A DNA stretch of 64,000 nt from an uncultured Alphaproteobacteria bacterium (GCA_902574225.1 CACGMO010000009.1:1-64000); one strand, 5' to 3'; positions 54,098-64,000 are shown, numbered from the stretch's first letter. The notes: generated from the letters alone by a model not told the origin. Program-made: numbers and translations.

Positions 54098-54679
54098 CTA
54101 GCTGAAAGGGATAGTATTGTCATTTTTCTTACTTTGGTACTCGGCGGACAAACTGTCATATATTGACGATATACGCTCAGATATTTTCAATAAATCATCT
54201 CTGCTTGCTGGTTCTAGCATATCGATCTGCTCTTTTATTGCAAAACATTTCCAAAAATAATTTTCTCTACTATACGCTCCGTCCGACCTTCCAAATACTT
54301 CAGAAAGAATGTCTAAATCGTGAGCTATATTAAAAGCTTTTTTTGTATCTTCGTAATTAAAAAAAAAGTAAATAGTATTAAACCCGGCCCAAGTAATAGC
54401 TGATAAACACATTGGGCAAGGCTCATGTGTTGACAAAAATATGAGATCATCTGTGGACCTATTTTTGTTTTCAGCAAAAAATTTATTTAACGTAGATATT
54501 TCACCGTGAAAGAGCGGGTTTTCAGTTTCTTGATTAACCCCAATAGTCATAGTTGAATAATCACTTTTAGTTAGAATAGCACCTCCAAAAACTTTATTAC
54601 CTTTCGCAACACCTTTTTTTGTTTCTGGAATTATTTCTTCTTCGATGACTCTCAAAGCTCTTTCTATGAAATTTTTCAT
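54098..54679 (-). CDS. Zinc-dependent nucleoside/cytidine-like deaminase
   Basis: PLFHGEISTLNKF (HxE), THEPCPMCLSAITWAG (PCxxC). Confidence 0.85.
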   Translation of the reverse strand: MKNFIERALRVIEEEIIPETKKGVAKGNKVFGGAILTKSDYSTMTIGVNQETENPLFHGEISTLNKFFAENKNRSTDDLIFLSTHEPCPMCLSAITWAGFNTIYFFFNYEDTKKAFNIAHDLDILSEVFGRSDGAYSRENYFWKCFAIKEQIDMLEPASRDDLLKISERISSIYDSLSAEYQSKKNDNTIPFS

Positions 54680-55857
54680 AATGGTATGCCCACATAGTTT
54701 TCGGCAAAATGCGCTTGTGCAAAATTTGAGTGAGACAGATGTTCTAATTCACTAATTTTTATTTTCCTATCAAATTCTTTAGTCTCAGGAAACTCATGCA
54801 TCAAAGTAGTCATCCACCAACTAAATCGCACGGCTTTCCATATTCTATTCAAAGCCGTTTTAGAGTAGTTAAGTAATTTCTTATCACCCTCCCCTCTATA
54901 AAAGGATTTAAGGCCCTCTGATAAATAATGCACATCTGACACCGCTAGGTTCAAACCCTTAGCTCCAGTTGGAGGCACTATGTGAGCAGCGTCTCCAACT
55001 AGAAAGAGATTCCCATATTGAAGCGGCTCGACCACGAAACTCCTCAGGGGAGCAATAGATTTCTCAATTGAAGGACCAGTCCGCAAATTATCCTTTGCAT
55101 TCTCGGGTAGTCGTTTTATGAGTTCCTTCCAAAAATAATCATCCGGATAGTCCTCTGCTTTAGTATTCACATCACACTGAAGATAGTATCTTGAAAGATT
55201 ATTATTCCTCATAGAGCATAGGGCAAATCCATCACTAGTGTTGGCATAAATCAACTCATCACTGACGGGAGGGGTTTCAGACAAAATACCTAACCAGCCG
55301 AATGGATATATTCTTTCATACTCTTTTCTTTGGTTGAGAGGGATACGTTGCCTGCTAACGCCATGAAATCCATCACAGCCTACAATAAAGTCAGATACAA
55401 TTTTAATTTCTTTCCCAATTTCATCTTCAAATATTACCTCGGTCTTTGAAGATTTTGGATCGATTATATTTACGTTTTTCACTTGGAAAAAGATATTAGC
55501 CTCTCTTTCCTCCTGCTTTTGATATAAATCTTTTGTTACTTCAGTTTGTCCAAAAATTGTAACATTTTTACCAACGGTTTCTGAAAAAGAAACTCTGAAG
55601 CCTTTATTTTCTGATGAAAGGTAAGTACCTTCATGAACAAACCCATCAATATCAATTCTTTCACCTACACCTGCTCGTTTCAATATTTCTACAGTACCAC
55701 TCTCCAAAACACCTGCTCTTATTCTTGATAATACATGGCTTTTAGTGTGTTTTTCCAAGACGATGGTTTCTATGCCCTCATTCATGAGCAACTGGGATAA
55801 TAATAGACCTGAAGGACCACCACCTATAATCGTTACTTGTGTTTTGAAATCTACCAT
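54676..55857 (-). CDS. pobA: 4-hydroxybenzoate 3-monooxygenase
   Basis: VTIIGGGPSGLLLSQLLMNEGIETIVLEKH...RIRAGVLESGTVEILKRAGVGERID, VGDAAHIVPPTGAKGLNLAVSDV. Confidence 0.88.
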   Translation of the reverse strand: MVDFKTQVTIIGGGPSGLLLSQLLMNEGIETIVLEKHTKSHVLSRIRAGVLESGTVEILKRAGVGERIDIDGFVHEGTYLSSENKGFRVSFSETVGKNVTIFGQTEVTKDLYQKQEEREANIFFQVKNVNIIDPKSSKTEVIFEDEIGKEIKIVSDFIVGCDGFHGVSRQRIPLNQRKEYERIYPFGWLGILSETPPVSDELIYANTSDGFALCSMRNNNLSRYYLQCDVNTKAEDYPDDYFWKELIKRLPENAKDNLRTGPSIEKSIAPLRSFVVEPLQYGNLFLVGDAAHIVPPTGAKGLNLAVSDVHYLSEGLKSFYRGEGDKKLLNYSKTALNRIWKAVRFSWWMTTLMHEFPETKEFDRKIKISELEHLSHSNFAQAHFAENYVGIPL

Positions 55858-57649: not shown

Positions 57650-58591
57650 ATGAAAAGATCTATCAAAAATATCGTTCTCATAGCAGGAGGTGTAGGCGGT
57701 GCAAAATTAGCAGAGGGACTACATTCCATAAAAAATATAAATCTCGCTATCATTGGTAACATTGCAGATGACGATGAGTTCCATGGGCTAAGAGTTTCTC
57801 CAGATATAGATACCTTAACATATACACTTTCAGGTATGGTGAACCGAAAGCAAGGATGGGGAGTAAAGAAAGACACCTATAAAACGCTCTCAATGTTAAA
57901 TAAATTAGGCGAAGAAACCTGGATGTCTTTAGGTGACCTTGACTTTGGTCTTCATATTTACAGACAGCTTAGACTATTAAAAGATCACCGCCCGACAATT
58001 ATCGCGAACGAGATCGCTAAAAAATTTGGGATAACGGCAGATATAATCTTACCGACTGACGACAAAATAAGAACAAAGGTACAGACTAAGACGGGTTGGA
58101 TATCATTTCAAGAATATTTTGTCAAAAAACGTTGTTCACCGAAAATTATAAAACTTAAATACACCGGAATTAAATCAGCCAAAATTACCAAAGAGGCAAA
58201 AAAAGCACTTTTTAACGCTGAACTCATAATTATTGCTCCCTCAAATCCTTTAGTAAGCATAAAACCAATACTTGAAATACCTGGGTTTAAATCGATCATT
58301 AAAAAAAATAATAAGAAGGTGATAGCAATAAGTCCGTTGATCCAAGGAAAGGCTGTAAAAGGACCCGCAACAAAAATGCTTAAACAATTAGGTTTCAAGC
58401 CAAATTCTTTTTCTTGTATGCAGATATACAAAGATATTTGCAAATCATTCATTCTCGATAGGTCCGATGAAGGACTGAAGAAACAATTTGTCTCGCTAAA
58501 TCAGAAACCTATATTTACTAATACCCTGATGACATCTCTTGCAGACAAGAAAAGACTAGCTAAGTTCATTATTAACCAACCTATTGATTGA
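57650..58591 (+). CDS. cofD: 2-phospho-L-lactate transferase (coenzyme F420 biosynthesis)
   Basis: IVLIAGGVGGAKLAEGL, NIADDDEFHGLRVSPDIDTLTYTLSG, GLHIYRQLRL, IAPSNPLVSIKPIL, SPLIQGKAVKGPA. Confidence 0.92.
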   Translation: MKRSIKNIVLIAGGVGGAKLAEGLHSIKNINLAIIGNIADDDEFHGLRVSPDIDTLTYTLSGMVNRKQGWGVKKDTYKTLSMLNKLGEETWMSLGDLDFGLHIYRQLRLLKDHRPTIIANEIAKKFGITADIILPTDDKIRTKVQTKTGWISFQEYFVKKRCSPKIIKLKYTGIKSAKITKEAKKALFNAELIIIAPSNPLVSIKPILEIPGFKSIIKKNNKKVIAISPLIQGKAVKGPATKMLKQLGFKPNSFSCMQIYKDICKSFILDRSDEGLKKQFVSLNQKPIFTNTLMTSLADKKRLAKFIINQPID

Positions 58592-58686
58592 TTTTCAAAA
58601 AAACTTTAGAACTTTTTCGAAAAGGTTAATAACAGATTTGGATCTGTAACATGCATAATTGCAATTTAGGGTAGCTATTAAAGAAA

Positions 58687-59466
58687 ATGTCAAATTCAAT
58701 GTTAAATTTAAATATTATTCCGAATATTCCTGACATCGAAATAGGTGACGACATTAGTGGCATCCTAATTTCTGCTTTAAACAAATCTTCTATGTGTCTG
58801 AAAGAATTTGACGTTATTTGTATAGCACATAAAATATTTTCAAAAGCTGAGGGATGCATAATAGAATTAAAAGAAATTTCTCCCTCGGAAAAAGCAATCG
58901 AACTTGGGAAAAGCCTTAACAAGGACCCAAGAAAGGTCGAAGTCGTATTGCAAGAAAGTAACAATATTATTCGCTCCTTTAAAAGAGAGAAACAAAATGA
59001 AGGAACTCTCATCTGCCAGCATAAACTTGGATTTATCTGCGCTAATGCAGGAGTTGATGAGTCTAATATAGGATGTCAGGAAACAGTGATTACCGTCCCA
59101 AAAAATCCTGATCTTAGTGTTCAAGTTTTAAGAGAAAAACTTAAAAATCACTTTAATTTGGAGAACTTGGGGATAGTTATGAGCGATACCTTTGGAAGAC
59201 CGTGGAGAATTGGACAGGTCAATGTTGCTATTGGTGTCTCAGGACTACCGGCAACAAAAAAAAAGCAGGGAACTAGCGATGCTTGGGGAAATCAATTATA
59301 CGTGACAGAACCAGCTTTTTGTGATGAAATAGCAGCATCTTCAGGGCTTCTTATGAGCAAAGCAGGGAAATGTCCTGCTATTTTATTGAGAGGACTTAGC
59401 TGGAGTGGCAAGCATGGCTCTGCAAATGACATTCTGCGTAAACAAAATGAGGATATGTTTAGATGA
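58687..59466 (+). CDS. cofE: Coenzyme F420-0:L-glutamate ligase (single-domain type)
   Basis: [78 protein letters not shown]. Confidence 0.92.
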
Positions 59467-60131
59467 AGTTATCAATTATTGGAGGAACTGGACCCCAAGG
59501 GAAAGGCCTCGCCCTTAGATTTGCTAAGGCAGGTTTCGAAGTTGCTTTAGGATCACGTGATGAATCCAGAGCTATCGAAGTTGCAGATAGTTTAACATCA
59601 AAAAACCAAAACCTCTTGGGGTCAATAATTGGGCTTTCGAATAGCGAAGCAATAGCATTCACGGACAAGTTTGTAATATTTTCAGTACCTTGGAGTGGTC
59701 ACAACAATACACTTTCTCAAATCAAAGGCATGCTAGCCGATAAGATACTTGTTGATATAGTAGTTCCATTGGAAGACGGAAACCCCAGAAAAGTAGCTAT
59801 GCCCCCTGAAGGCTCAGCTACAGAAGCAGCCCAAGCCATATTAGGATCTGACATACCAGTAGTTGGCGCCCTCCATAATGTTTCCGCGAATACACTAAAT
59901 CACCTAGAGAAAAAAATTAATTGTGATATCTTGGTATGTGGGAACAATTTGGATGCTAGGTTAGATACTATAGAATTGTTAAAAAACTTAGAAGTCGAAG
60001 CTTACAATGCTGGTGATGCAACATCAGCGAGATGTTTAGAGGCTATAACGCCTATATTGATCAGAATAAATATGTCTAAAGCGGTGCCTTTTTCACATGC
60101 TGGAATAAAAATTTGGCCACCGGAGGAATAA
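59463..60131 (+). CDS. npdG: F420-dependent NADP reductase-like protein
   Basis: [58 protein letters not shown]; overlaps cofE by 4 bp. Confidence 0.88.
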
Positions 60132-60144
60132 AAAGGAGGAAGTT

Positions 60145-61146
60145 ATGGAATTTGCAATTTGTTTTAAAGGGTTTGTTCAACCAGATCGAGCAAAAGCGCT
60201 GGTTAGATTGGCTGAGAGCGCTGGATTCACATATTGCTGGTTCTACGATAGCCACATCCTTTGGAGAGAAAGCTTTGCTCAAATGGCTATGTGTATGGAA
60301 CACACAAAAAAAATGCGGTTTGGACCATGTGTAACCAATCCCAATACTAGAGACTGGTCTTTAGCGGCATCAATGTTTGGCTCACTAGCTCTACAATCGA
60401 ATGGACGATTTGATATCGGTGTTGGAAGAGGAGACAGCGCTGTTCGCGTAATGGGAAAGAAGCCTGCGAACCTAGCACGAATGGAAGAATTTATTTTAAA
60501 AGTAAAGGCAATGGTTAAGGGGGAAGAAGTCCAGTATGGTGATGTTCCTAACCCAATTCAATTTCCATGGGCAGAAGGATATGATTTGCCAGTCTGGGTA
60601 GCTGCATATGGGCCAAAGGCTCTTACATCTGCAGGAAAAGTTGGAGATGGTTTGGTGCTTCAAATTGCTTCTCCAACCGTTTGCAAATGGCTAAGAGATC
60701 AAGCAGTGAAAGCAGGAGAAGAACATGGACGTGATATGTCAGACTATAAGGTAATGGTGGCTGCACCTGCTTACTTTGGAGACAGAGCAGAAAGTATTGA
60801 GAAAGTAAAGTGGTTTCCCGCTATGGTTGGAAATCACGTAGCTGACATAGTTGAGAAGTATGGTGAAGATAATAAGGACATTCCCAACAGCCTTACGGAC
60901 TATATCAAAGATCGCCGCGGCTATGATTACTCTAAACATGGCCAGAGCGATAATCCCTATTTAGAATTTATCACAGACGAAATAGTTGAAGAATTTTGTG
61001 TTTTGGGAACCGCTGATCAACATGTAAAAAAACTAAAAACGTTGAAAGATCTCGGAGTAACCCAATTCAATATTTATCTGGATAGTGGAGACGAGGAAAG
61101 AATTATCGCAGAATACGGCGAAAATGTTATACCAGCTTTTTCATAG
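60145..61146 (+). CDS. Luciferase-like (LLM) F420-dependent oxidoreductase
   Basis: ALVRLAESAGFTYCWFYDSH, FGPCVTNPNTRDWSLAASMFGSLALQSNGRFDIGVGRGDSAVR, PVWVAAYGPKALTSAGKVGDGLVLQ; RBS AAAAAGGAGG. Confidence 0.9.
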   Translation: MEFAICFKGFVQPDRAKALVRLAESAGFTYCWFYDSHILWRESFAQMAMCMEHTKKMRFGPCVTNPNTRDWSLAASMFGSLALQSNGRFDIGVGRGDSAVRVMGKKPANLARMEEFILKVKAMVKGEEVQYGDVPNPIQFPWAEGYDLPVWVAAYGPKALTSAGKVGDGLVLQIASPTVCKWLRDQAVKAGEEHGRDMSDYKVMVAAPAYFGDRAESIEKVKWFPAMVGNHVADIVEKYGEDNKDIPNSLTDYIKDRRGYDYSKHGQSDNPYLEFITDEIVEEFCVLGTADQHVKKLKTLKDLGVTQFNIYLDSGDEERIIAEYGENVIPAFS

Positions 61147-61244
61147 GATGCCTAAGATATTGTAAAAAAGACATTCTTCTATTCTCAGCTTTAAAAGACT
61201 GCATAACAAACAAAGCTCAGGATATTTTTTAGGTTAATTAGCTC

Positions 61245-62156
61245 TTGATAAAAAAAATATCGTTAGAGACATCAGAGGTTTGGGGACACGGAGCAATGCT
61301 CCTTTTCTCCTTATGTGTGTCAGTGTCTTATATTTTAGGAGCAATGGTTGCAAATGACATAGAACCAGGAGCTATAACAGCAGCAAGGTTTTTGATAGGG
61401 GCAAGTGTAATGGGAACATTATTATTTATTTCAAAAAACCTAAAGAAAGAGGACTTCAAAAAACCATGGCGATTTCTCATTCTAGGATCAAGCATAGTTA
61501 TCTATTTTGTTTTAATGTTCGAAGCACTAAAAACAGCTTCTTCTCTATCACTAGCTGTAGTTTTCACTCTTACCCCTTTTATTGCGCTTTTTTTTGAATA
61601 TTTTTTAAAGAAAAAAGTGACCCTCAAGGCCTTCCTGGCGATTTCTCTTGGCGCAATGGGAGCAATTTGGGTAATTTTTGAAGGCAATCTAGAAAACCTT
61701 TTAACATTTAAAATAGGCTATGGTGAACTACTCTTTTTTTGGGGGTGTGTTGGCCATGCTTTATACGCTATTTTAATCCCAGTTCTTAACAAAGGGGAGA
61801 ATGCAGCATCGCAAACCTTAGGAACTTTGAGTGCTGGATTCCTACTACTTATTTTAATTTTTACCAATGATGTTGTAGAAACAAATTGGACTAGCCTGTC
61901 TCCATTAATTTGGATAACTATAATTTACTTGGCTACAATTGCGACAGCTTTTACTTTTTTCTTAATCCAGTTTGCAGCGAAAAGAATAAGCGCTTCAAAA
62001 GTAATGGCCTACACCTATGCTGTTCCTTTTTGGGTGGCATTAGGAGAGATAATTATTAACTCTAGCTTTCCAAATACAAACATAATTTTTGGAGGCTTTA
62101 TAATTGCCTTTGCATTATTAGTGCTAATTAGTGATAATACAAAAGCGAGGATTTAA
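61245..62156 (+). CDS. EamA/DMT family transporter
   Basis: AMVANDIEPGAITAARFLIGASVMGTLLF, SLSLAVVFTLTPFIALFFEYFLKKKVTLKAFLAISLGAMGAIWV; TTG start. Confidence 0.88.
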   Translation: MIKKISLETSEVWGHGAMLLFSLCVSVSYILGAMVANDIEPGAITAARFLIGASVMGTLLFISKNLKKEDFKKPWRFLILGSSIVIYFVLMFEALKTASSLSLAVVFTLTPFIALFFEYFLKKKVTLKAFLAISLGAMGAIWVIFEGNLENLLTFKIGYGELLFFWGCVGHALYAILIPVLNKGENAASQTLGTLSAGFLLLILIFTNDVVETNWTSLSPLIWITIIYLATIATAFTFFLIQFAAKRISASKVMAYTYAVPFWVALGEIIINSSFPNTNIIFGGFIIAFALLVLISDNTKARI

Positions 62157-62175
62157 AATTTGTTAAGAGGATCGA

Positions 62176-63423
62176 ATGTCAACACCAGCAGCTAATTTAA
62201 AAATTAACTCATCTCGTCTTTGGGACTCCCTAATGGAAATGGCAAAAATAGGTCCCGGTATCGCAGGTGGAAACAACAGACAAACACTCACAGACGAAGA
62301 CGCCGAAGGACGAGAATTGTTCCAAAAGTGGTGTGATAAAGAAAATTTGGAAATGGGTGTTGACAAAATGGGAACAATGTTCGCTAGACGTGAAGGAACA
62401 GACCCAAATGCTTTACCTGTTTACGTTGGAAGCCATCTTGATACCCAGCCAACTGGCGGTAAGTATGATGGAGTTTTAGGAGTTCTGGGTGGATTGGAAA
62501 TAATAAGAACACTCAATGAGCTTGATATAAAAACAAAGCACCCAATTGTAGTCGTAAATTTTACAAATGAAGAAGGGACTCGCTTTGCTCCTCCAATGAT
62601 GGCATCGGGAGTTTTTGCAGGAGTACATGAACTCCAATGGGCTTATGATAGAAGGGATGCAGCAGGAAAAACGTTTGGAGAAGAAATCAAGCGCATCGGA
62701 TGGATTGGTGACGAAGAAGTAGGATCACGAAAAATGCATGCTTTTTTTGAACTCCACATTGAGCAAGGACCAATATTAGAGGCTGAAAATAAAGATATTG
62801 GCGTTGTGACCCATGGACAAGGGCTTAATTGGATACAAGTAACTCTTAACGGTCGGGAAAGCCATACGGGATCAACCCCCATGCCGATGCGTAAAAATGC
62901 CGGTCTAGGTATGGCTAGAATTACAGAGCTAGTTCAAGAGATCGCAATGGGTCACCAGCCATCTGCAGTTGGTGGGATAGGGCAATGCGATGTGTTTCCT
63001 AATAGTAGAAACATAATACCTGGTAAAGTGGTGTTTACTATAGATTTTAGATCTCCATCATTTGATGTCCAGGATGATATGGAAAAACGTTTGTATGAGG
63101 GAGCAAAAAAAATTGCTTCTGATTTGGAATTGACTGTGGAATTTGAAAAGGTTGGGCATTTTGACCCTGTGACCTTTGATGAAGGATGTGTAGATAAAGT
63201 TAGAAGAGCTGCTGAAAGATTAGGGTATTCACATAAAAATATTATATCGGGAGCGGGGCATGACGCGTGTTGGATAAATAAAGTAGCGCCAACGGCGATG
63301 ATTATGTGTCCTTGCGTTGATGGTTTGAGCCATAATGAGGCAGAAGAGATATCTGAAAAGTGGGCTTCAGCAGGTGCCGATGTTTTATTGCATGCAGTAT
63401 TAGAAGCTGCTGAAATAGTTTAA
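62176..63423 (+). CDS. Zn-dependent N-carbamoyl amino acid/beta-ureidopropionase-type amidohydrolase (M20 family)
   Basis: VGSHLDTQPTGGKYDGVLGVLGGLEI, FTNEEGTRFAPPMMASG, ELHIEQGPILE, SGAGHDACWI. Confidence 0.92.
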   Translation: MSTPAANLKINSSRLWDSLMEMAKIGPGIAGGNNRQTLTDEDAEGRELFQKWCDKENLEMGVDKMGTMFARREGTDPNALPVYVGSHLDTQPTGGKYDGVLGVLGGLEIIRTLNELDIKTKHPIVVVNFTNEEGTRFAPPMMASGVFAGVHELQWAYDRRDAAGKTFGEEIKRIGWIGDEEVGSRKMHAFFELHIEQGPILEAENKDIGVVTHGQGLNWIQVTLNGRESHTGSTPMPMRKNAGLGMARITELVQEIAMGHQPSAVGGIGQCDVFPNSRNIIPGKVVFTIDFRSPSFDVQDDMEKRLYEGAKKIASDLELTVEFEKVGHFDPVTFDEGCVDKVRRAAERLGYSHKNIISGAGHDACWINKVAPTAMIMCPCVDGLSHNEAEEISEKWASAGADVLLHAVLEAAEIV

Positions 63424-63436
63424 TTGGGAGGGTAAA

Positions 63437-64000
63437 ATGACTAAAGTAATAAAGGGTGGAACCATTGTAACAGCTGATCGAGAGTGGAAAGCTGATGTAT
63501 TAATAGAAAATGAAACAATTAAGCAGATTGGGGAAAATCTAAAGGGGGATGAGACGATTGACGCCGAAGGCGCTTATGTGATCCCCGGCGGAATAGACCC
63601 ACATACGCACCTTGAGATGCCATTTATGGGGACCACCGCCGCCGAGACTTTTGAAACAGGTACCTGGGCAGCCGCAGTCGGTGGAACAACAATGTTAGTG
63701 GACTTCTGTCTTCCAGGAGAGGACGGTAGCTTGGTTAATGCAGTAAAGGAGTGGCATAGAAAGTCAGAGCCTCAAATTTGTTCCGACATTGGTTATCACA
63801 TGGCGGTTACCGGTTGGTCTGAACAGATTTTTGATGATATGCCAAAGGTAGTTGAGATGGGAGTAAATTCATTTAAACATTTTATGGCTTATAAAGGAGC
63901 CCTAATGATTGAGGATGATGAAATGTTTGCATCTTTTAAAAGATGTGCATCTATCGGCGCTCTGCCTATGGTTCACGCAGAAAATGGTGATATTGTAGCC
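63437..64000 (+). CDS. hydA: Dihydropyrimidinase / D-hydantoinase, 3' truncated by window end
   Basis: ATG 63437 after GGGAGGG; MTKVIKGGTIVTADREWKADVLIENETIKQIG...YVIPGGIDPHTHLEMPFMGTTAAETFETGTWAAAVGGTTMLVDF...FKHFMAYKGALMIEDDEMF; not in ORF track because no stop before the edge. Confidence 0.93.
   Translation, partial: MTKVIKGGTIVTADREWKADVLIENETIKQIGENLKGDETIDAEGAYVIPGGIDPHTHLEMPFMGTTAAETFETGTWAAAVGGTTMLVDFCLPGEDGSLVNAVKEWHRKSEPQICSDIGYHMAVTGWSEQIFDDMPKVVEMGVNSFKHFMAYKGALMIEDDEMFASFKRCASIGALPMVHAENGDIVA

Follow-up and report, generated by a model that had tools for sequence, protein, structure and literature searches.

A locus of seven consecutive same-strand genes in a 64,000-nucleotide stretch of DNA from an uncultured Alphaproteobacteria bacterium (GCA_902574225.1, CACGMO010000009.1:1-64000; hereafter the window) probably encodes a pathway for reductive pyrimidine degradation (Pyd), the first step of which would be carried out by an F420-using uracil/thymine reductase of the LLM class. 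From gene content and comparison with relatives, we put the probability of this reading at roughly 0.8. The genes are cofD, cofE, npdG, the LLM gene, an EamA transporter gene, an M20 amidase gene and hydA; all seven open reading frames listed by the initial annotation, which was made from the DNA alone, were found. The contig is 70,121 bases long, the window being its first 64,000, and the host genome (2.09 Mb in 76 contigs, 88% complete) has as its closest relatives marine Alphaproteobacteria represented by single-cell genomes and metagenome-assembled genomes.

In two sets of sampled genomes, the LLM and PreA, the canonical dihydropyrimidine dehydrogenase (PreA/PydA), stand in for each other: genomes with the LLM keep hydA, and in them PreA is absent or hydA is doubled. 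All 26 LLM-bearing genomes tested carried hydA, and PreA among 30 LLM-bearing genomes was clear in one (324 bits), weak in two (136 and 101 bits) and at 40 bits or less in the rest. A Colwellia genome with both enzymes contained two loci, hydA-preT-preA-NCS1-carbamoylase and hydA-cofGHDCE-npdG-LLM-carbamoylase. Among 346 Rhodobacterales, hydA was present in 321 and PreA in 310, every PreA genome also having hydA. Four of these Rhodobacterales carried the LLM: PreA was absent in two (the window genome and G535), and the other two (G448 and G543) contained PreA and a second hydA copy, a state found in just five of the 346 genomes (Fisher p = 0.006 and 0.0002, uncorrected for phylogeny). The first hydA of G448 lies in a canonical locus with preT-preA, rutR, a carbamoylase and an ABC transporter, and the second in a locus with a transhydrogenase, an AptA-like aminotransferase, a carbamoylase and NCS1. 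In a class-wide sample of 276 Gammaproteobacteria, seven genomes contained hydA; PreA was near hydA on the same contig in five, and the LLM was present in exactly the other two. With only two LLM genomes, one of which was the sample's centre, the latter exclusivity is suggestive only.

The linkage of the LLM with hydA, which the initial annotation had reported for the window, is likewise present elsewhere among the Alpha- and Gammaproteobacteria and extends to a Streptomyces. The gene order cofG-cofH-cofD-cofC-cofE-npdG-LLM recurs in Rhodobacteraceae, Cellvibrionales, Vibrio, Alteromonas, Colwellia and Oceanospirillaceae, flanked by genes for a carbamoylase or nitrilase-type amidase, hydA, an NCS1 symporter, AptA, methylmalonate-semialdehyde dehydrogenase (MMSDH), LysR, RutR-like regulators and, at times, PntAB. 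The whole pyrimidine-degradation pathway surrounds the F420 operon in Vibrio and Alteromonas, and a 176-kb plasmid of Leisingera aquaemixtae brings together NCS1, hydA, carbamoylase, aminotransferase, pntAB, cofGHDCE, npdG, LLM and regulator genes. On Arenicellales and Acidiferrobacteraceae contigs the LLM adjoins hydA without cof genes, and in Streptomyces sp. BHT-5-2 it lies directly 3' of a dihydropyrimidinase gene, with nitrilase-type amidase and aminotransferase genes close and cof genes not nearby. The LLM therefore tracks the pyrimidine genes also where linked cofactor genes are lacking. It is very unlikely that the locus consists of two adjoining but unrelated units, one with F420 and LLM genes for some other function and one built on the hydantoinase. 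Such a division would fit Paracoccus alcaliphilus and G535, in which hydA was not found beside the F420-LLM operon in the stretch examined, but it is opposed by the rearranged co-clustering in many families, the Streptomyces hydA-LLM pair, the replacement of PreA and the operators shared by the genes (see below). Chance adjacency was dropped because the linkage spans classes and phyla.

The EamA protein, initially proposed to transport a substrate or product, was not supported as a dedicated transporter, since it neighbours the other genes in some alphaproteobacterial loci only; the transport genes that are conserved encode NCS1 or an ABC system. On a plasmid of Caballeronia sp. SBC2 (L115:12001-17000), an LLM fragment of 128 residues is encoded next to genes for a Zn-dependent hydrolase and transhydrogenase-like proteins; the module seems to have decayed there.

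Regulation of the uracil type accompanies the module in relatives. The RutR operator consensus used in our scans was loosened following an initial inspection of the sites, with TTKACCA in place of TTGACCA, and 47 of the 54 resulting palindromes fell within 250 bp upstream of pathway genes (6.3 expected). The p-value of this enrichment is inflated because of the relaxation, and the strict E. coli consensus provides the safer test, in which the site beat shuffles (p <= 0.01) in 17 of 21 clade representatives. RutR-type palindromes were present in 20 of 28 cofG promoters; others lie 5' of certain genes for carbamoylase, NCS1 and HydA and, in canonical loci, 5' of preT. E. coli RutR binds a palindrome of ~16 bp, and its effector, uracil, is contacted by W77, Y97, W167, Q171 and Q179 (PMC10891134). 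All five residues are retained in 22 of 23 neighbouring RutR-like regulators, at 32-45% overall identity.

Three RutR-like regulators (L105:7128-7754, L107:9931-10545 and L113:13228-13857) have Thr for Lys at the DNA-contacting position 52; the standard RutR box 5' of cofG is not significant in L105 and L113 and weak in L107, hinting that these regulators recognise a changed operator. In Alteromonas relatives, RutR-type palindromes precede a gene by the LLM for a TonB-dependent receptor (L025:11287-13715, L041:11173-13680), possibly an outer-membrane pyrimidine or nucleoside receptor.

The initial annotation had the LLM perform the first step on a pyrimidine or a hydantoin-like ring. RutR-type control and the uracil contacts favour the pyrimidine, and the uracil-sensing RutR together with the replacement of PreA disfavours hydantoin as the main substrate; the reaction itself is a predicted one. 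We consider it unlikely that the LLM acts on some other unsaturated ureide or cyclic amide (a hydantoin-like compound, a thiamine-pyrimidine fragment or a modified pyrimidine), the product of which would be degraded by HydA and the amidase. The dihydropyrimidinase and M20 carbamoylase families are both promiscuous, the ABC binding protein encoded 3' of hydA is NMT1/THI5-like, the aminotransferase of the contig is unlike AptA, and an F420-dependent luciferase-family reductase predicted in Chloroflexota uric acid clusters makes another substrate conceivable (PMC12507026). Against this stand the uracil contacts kept in regulators whose operators precede cofG, the pairing, in G448, of canonical PreTA with this same set of ABC transporter, hydA and carbamoylase genes, and the AptA and MMSDH of relatives, which suit beta-alanine and beta-aminoisobutyrate.

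The LLM belongs to TIGR03842 (F420_CPS_4043), a family without assigned function that in NCBIfam has the status of a hypothetical equivalog only. Members from Streptomyces and Acidobacteria score 586 and 436 bits, respectively, and 74 positions are invariant among the proteobacterial, acidobacterial and Streptomyces members. By profile, sequence and fold, the nearest proteins are F420-dependent enzymes (Mer): the AlphaFold model (pLDDT 86.7) best matched the Mer structures 8qq8, 8qpl and 1z69 (TM ~0.8). The alignment showed that GPxVTNP, the non-prolyl cis-peptide region of Mer, is kept, and that LLM Asp97 is conserved and corresponds to Mer Asp96, which adjoins or contacts the pyrimidine ring of the pterin (PMC11094777). 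Glu6, the catalytic residue of Mer (PMC11094777), is replaced by Cys, Thr or Val in 36 LLM sequences. The invariant Gln173 lies near the Mer carboxamide position, a tentative placement because the published residue mismatched the aligned chain.

That the LLM is instead a RutA-type oxygenase dependent on FMN, serving an oxidative pathway with an incidental cof linkage, is highly improbable. RutA is generally known as a uracil-acting enzyme of the same fold, with no computed result in favour of this assignment; BLASTP of the LLM against E. coli RutA gave 21 bits (E 0.036), no meaningful similarity, and RutA-type oxidation was dropped on this ground. Moreover, the nearest solved sequences are F420 enzymes, HydA takes reduced rings as substrates, and the LLM, cof genes and npdG form a single conserved operon. 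The only other match to the LLM query in the host genome is a distant luciferase-family protein (L004:9822-10859, 27% identity), the gene of which adjoins enoyl-CoA hydratase-like and aldehyde dehydrogenase-like genes.

Several points weigh against an F420-dependent pyrimidine pathway at this locus. Folds of the LLM family also bind FMN. The window's genus has no RutR box upstream and no adjacent rutR, the look for RutR being confined to the stretches read. The best match to an E. coli PreA query in the host genome was 26 bits, and PreA could have been missed in an assembly that is 88% complete. Eleven Rhodobacterales contained hydA without PreA, and the LLM was also absent from nine of them, so hydA also serves other pathways. 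Finally, the aminotransferase encoded 3' of hydA is closer to glutamate-1-semialdehyde aminomutase (HemL) than to AptA. Four outcomes had been named beforehand as contrary to the F420 reading: a genome without cofC, cofG and cofH, an FMN-binding LLM, a canonical dihydropyrimidine dehydrogenase next to hydA, and no LLM-hydA linkage in relatives. All were run or approached, and none of the four refuted it; no canonical dehydrogenase was found beside hydA or elsewhere in the 88% complete genome. The core of the initial inference, an F420-dependent first step, is supported.

The locus genes are listed in Table 1. The curated NCBIfam cut-offs were passed by cofD, cofE, npdG, the LLM, the carbamoylase and full-length hydA. 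HydA contains the motifs DPHTH, FKHF, VHAEN, VVHVS and ATDHA, and the M20 amidase also exceeds the cut-off of NF006769 (686 bits vs 452), a model that leaves the substrate undefined, and is of the subfamily that adjoins canonical PreTA in one locus (L111). The overlap of cofE and npdG and the strong ribosome-binding site of the LLM gene noted initially are both visible in the DNA, as a shared 4 bp (ATGA) and a Shine-Dalgarno sequence, AAAAGGAGG.

Table 1. Position and family assignment of the seven genes of the locus
Gene and product	Coordinates	Strand	Family evidence
cofD, 2-phospho-L-lactate transferase (F420 synthesis)	57650..58591	+	TIGR01819 262.5 bits, cut-off 257.45
cofE, F420-0:L-glutamate ligase	58687..59466	+	TIGR01916 226 bits, cut-off 180.65
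npdG, NADPH-dependent F420 reductase, predicted F420H2 regeneration	59463..60131	+	TIGR01915 173 bits, equivalog cut-off 149.8
LLM class F420-dependent oxidoreductase; proposed F420H2-dependent uracil/thymine reductase	60145..61146	+	TIGR03842 504 bits, cut-off 295
EamA/DMT transporter	61245..62156	+	PF00892, Pfam-level assignment only
M20 hydantoinase/carbamoylase-family amidase; proposed beta-ureidopropionase (PydC)	62176..63423	+	TIGR01879 392 bits, cut-off 204
hydA, dihydropyrimidinase (PydB)	63437..64000 in window, ends at contig position 64897	+	TIGR02033 594 bits full-length, cut-off 393

The remaining F420 genes, cofG, cofH and cofC, which the initial annotation had proposed to look for elsewhere in the genome, are all present, grouped on contig 11 and above the curated cut-offs; with cofD and cofE at the locus, F420 synthesis is thus complete in the host genome. 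Downstream of hydA lie genes for an ABC ATPase, two permeases and the NMT1/THI5-like binding protein, followed by one for a class III aminotransferase. In the window's genus this ABC block (ATPase, two permeases, binding protein) occurs in two versions (L005-L016), ~56-72% and 96-100% identical to the window, and the flanking hydA and aminotransferase stay at ~91-99% identity, a pattern suggestive of a transporter swap by allelic replacement. Elsewhere in the window (54098-55857), a 4-hydroxybenzoate 3-monooxygenase gene (TIGR02360, above cut-off) lies beside a gene for a cytidine deaminase-fold protein.

In the proposed pathway, uracil or thymine would enter the cell, here probably through the ABC system encoded downstream and in relatives through the NCS1 symporter, and NpdG would produce F420H2 from NADPH. 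The TIGR03842 LLM is predicted to bind F420H2 and to transfer its hydride to the C5=C6 double bond, in the direction of dihydrouracil or dihydrothymine. HydA would then open the ring, and the M20 amidase, or a nitrilase-type enzyme in some relatives, would release ammonia, CO2 and a beta-amino acid. The class III aminotransferase, with MMSDH in relatives, may channel the latter to central metabolism; AptA and MMSDH are seen for this beta-alanine aminotransferase/semialdehyde dehydrogenase step in relatives, and the window contig has the HemL-like class III aminotransferase.

The classical dihydropyrimidine dehydrogenase contains four [4Fe-4S] clusters, and the enzyme swap may therefore save iron in the open ocean. 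We think it more likely than not, with less assurance than for the pathway itself, that pyrimidine catabolism is the main purpose of F420 in these marine Proteobacteria, which would carry a mobile uracil-controlled module with whole cofactor synthesis, a reductase and a non-homologous dihydropyrimidine-forming enzyme that spares iron-sulfur clusters. The reason for F420 synthesis in Proteobacteria was named as unanswered in a 2021 review (PMC8498797), and the module, if real, provides a concrete answer for one group. It also suggests a function for TIGR03842, and an F420H2-dependent non-homologous enzyme would join the known uracil reducers, which draw on NADPH, NADH or ferredoxin (PMC7332683). 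Among the openly licensed papers searched, we found no prior description of an F420 variant of pyrimidine degradation or of a function for TIGR03842.

Four known systems resemble the proposed one in part. The Rut pathway shares the uracil-responsive RutR-type regulator found in relatives and, in RutA, the LLM fold, but RutA is oxidative and without detectable similarity to the LLM, and the downstream enzymes are different. Mer is the nearest characterised family and shares the cis-peptide motif and Asp96, but differs in its overall sequence (~26% identity), in Glu6 and in genomic context. In the Chloroflexota clusters, an F420-dependent luciferase-family yanthine reductase is predicted in place of the usual reductase (UacX/YgfK) before ring opening, as proposed here; that pathway, however, is a purine pathway of another phylum and is a prediction only (PMC12507026). 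In the Pyd pathway (PydA, PreAT or PydAc), the ring is likewise reduced before it is opened, the shared components being dihydropyrimidinase, nucleobase transporters and, as predicted here or seen in relatives, ureidopropionase, a beta-amino acid aminotransferase and a semialdehyde dehydrogenase (PMC7332683). The first step here would be performed by an F420-type LLM TIM barrel instead of a DHODH-like FMN/Fe-S enzyme, the proposed donor is F420H2 instead of NADPH, NADH or ferredoxin, and genes for synthesis of the cofactor accompany the pathway.

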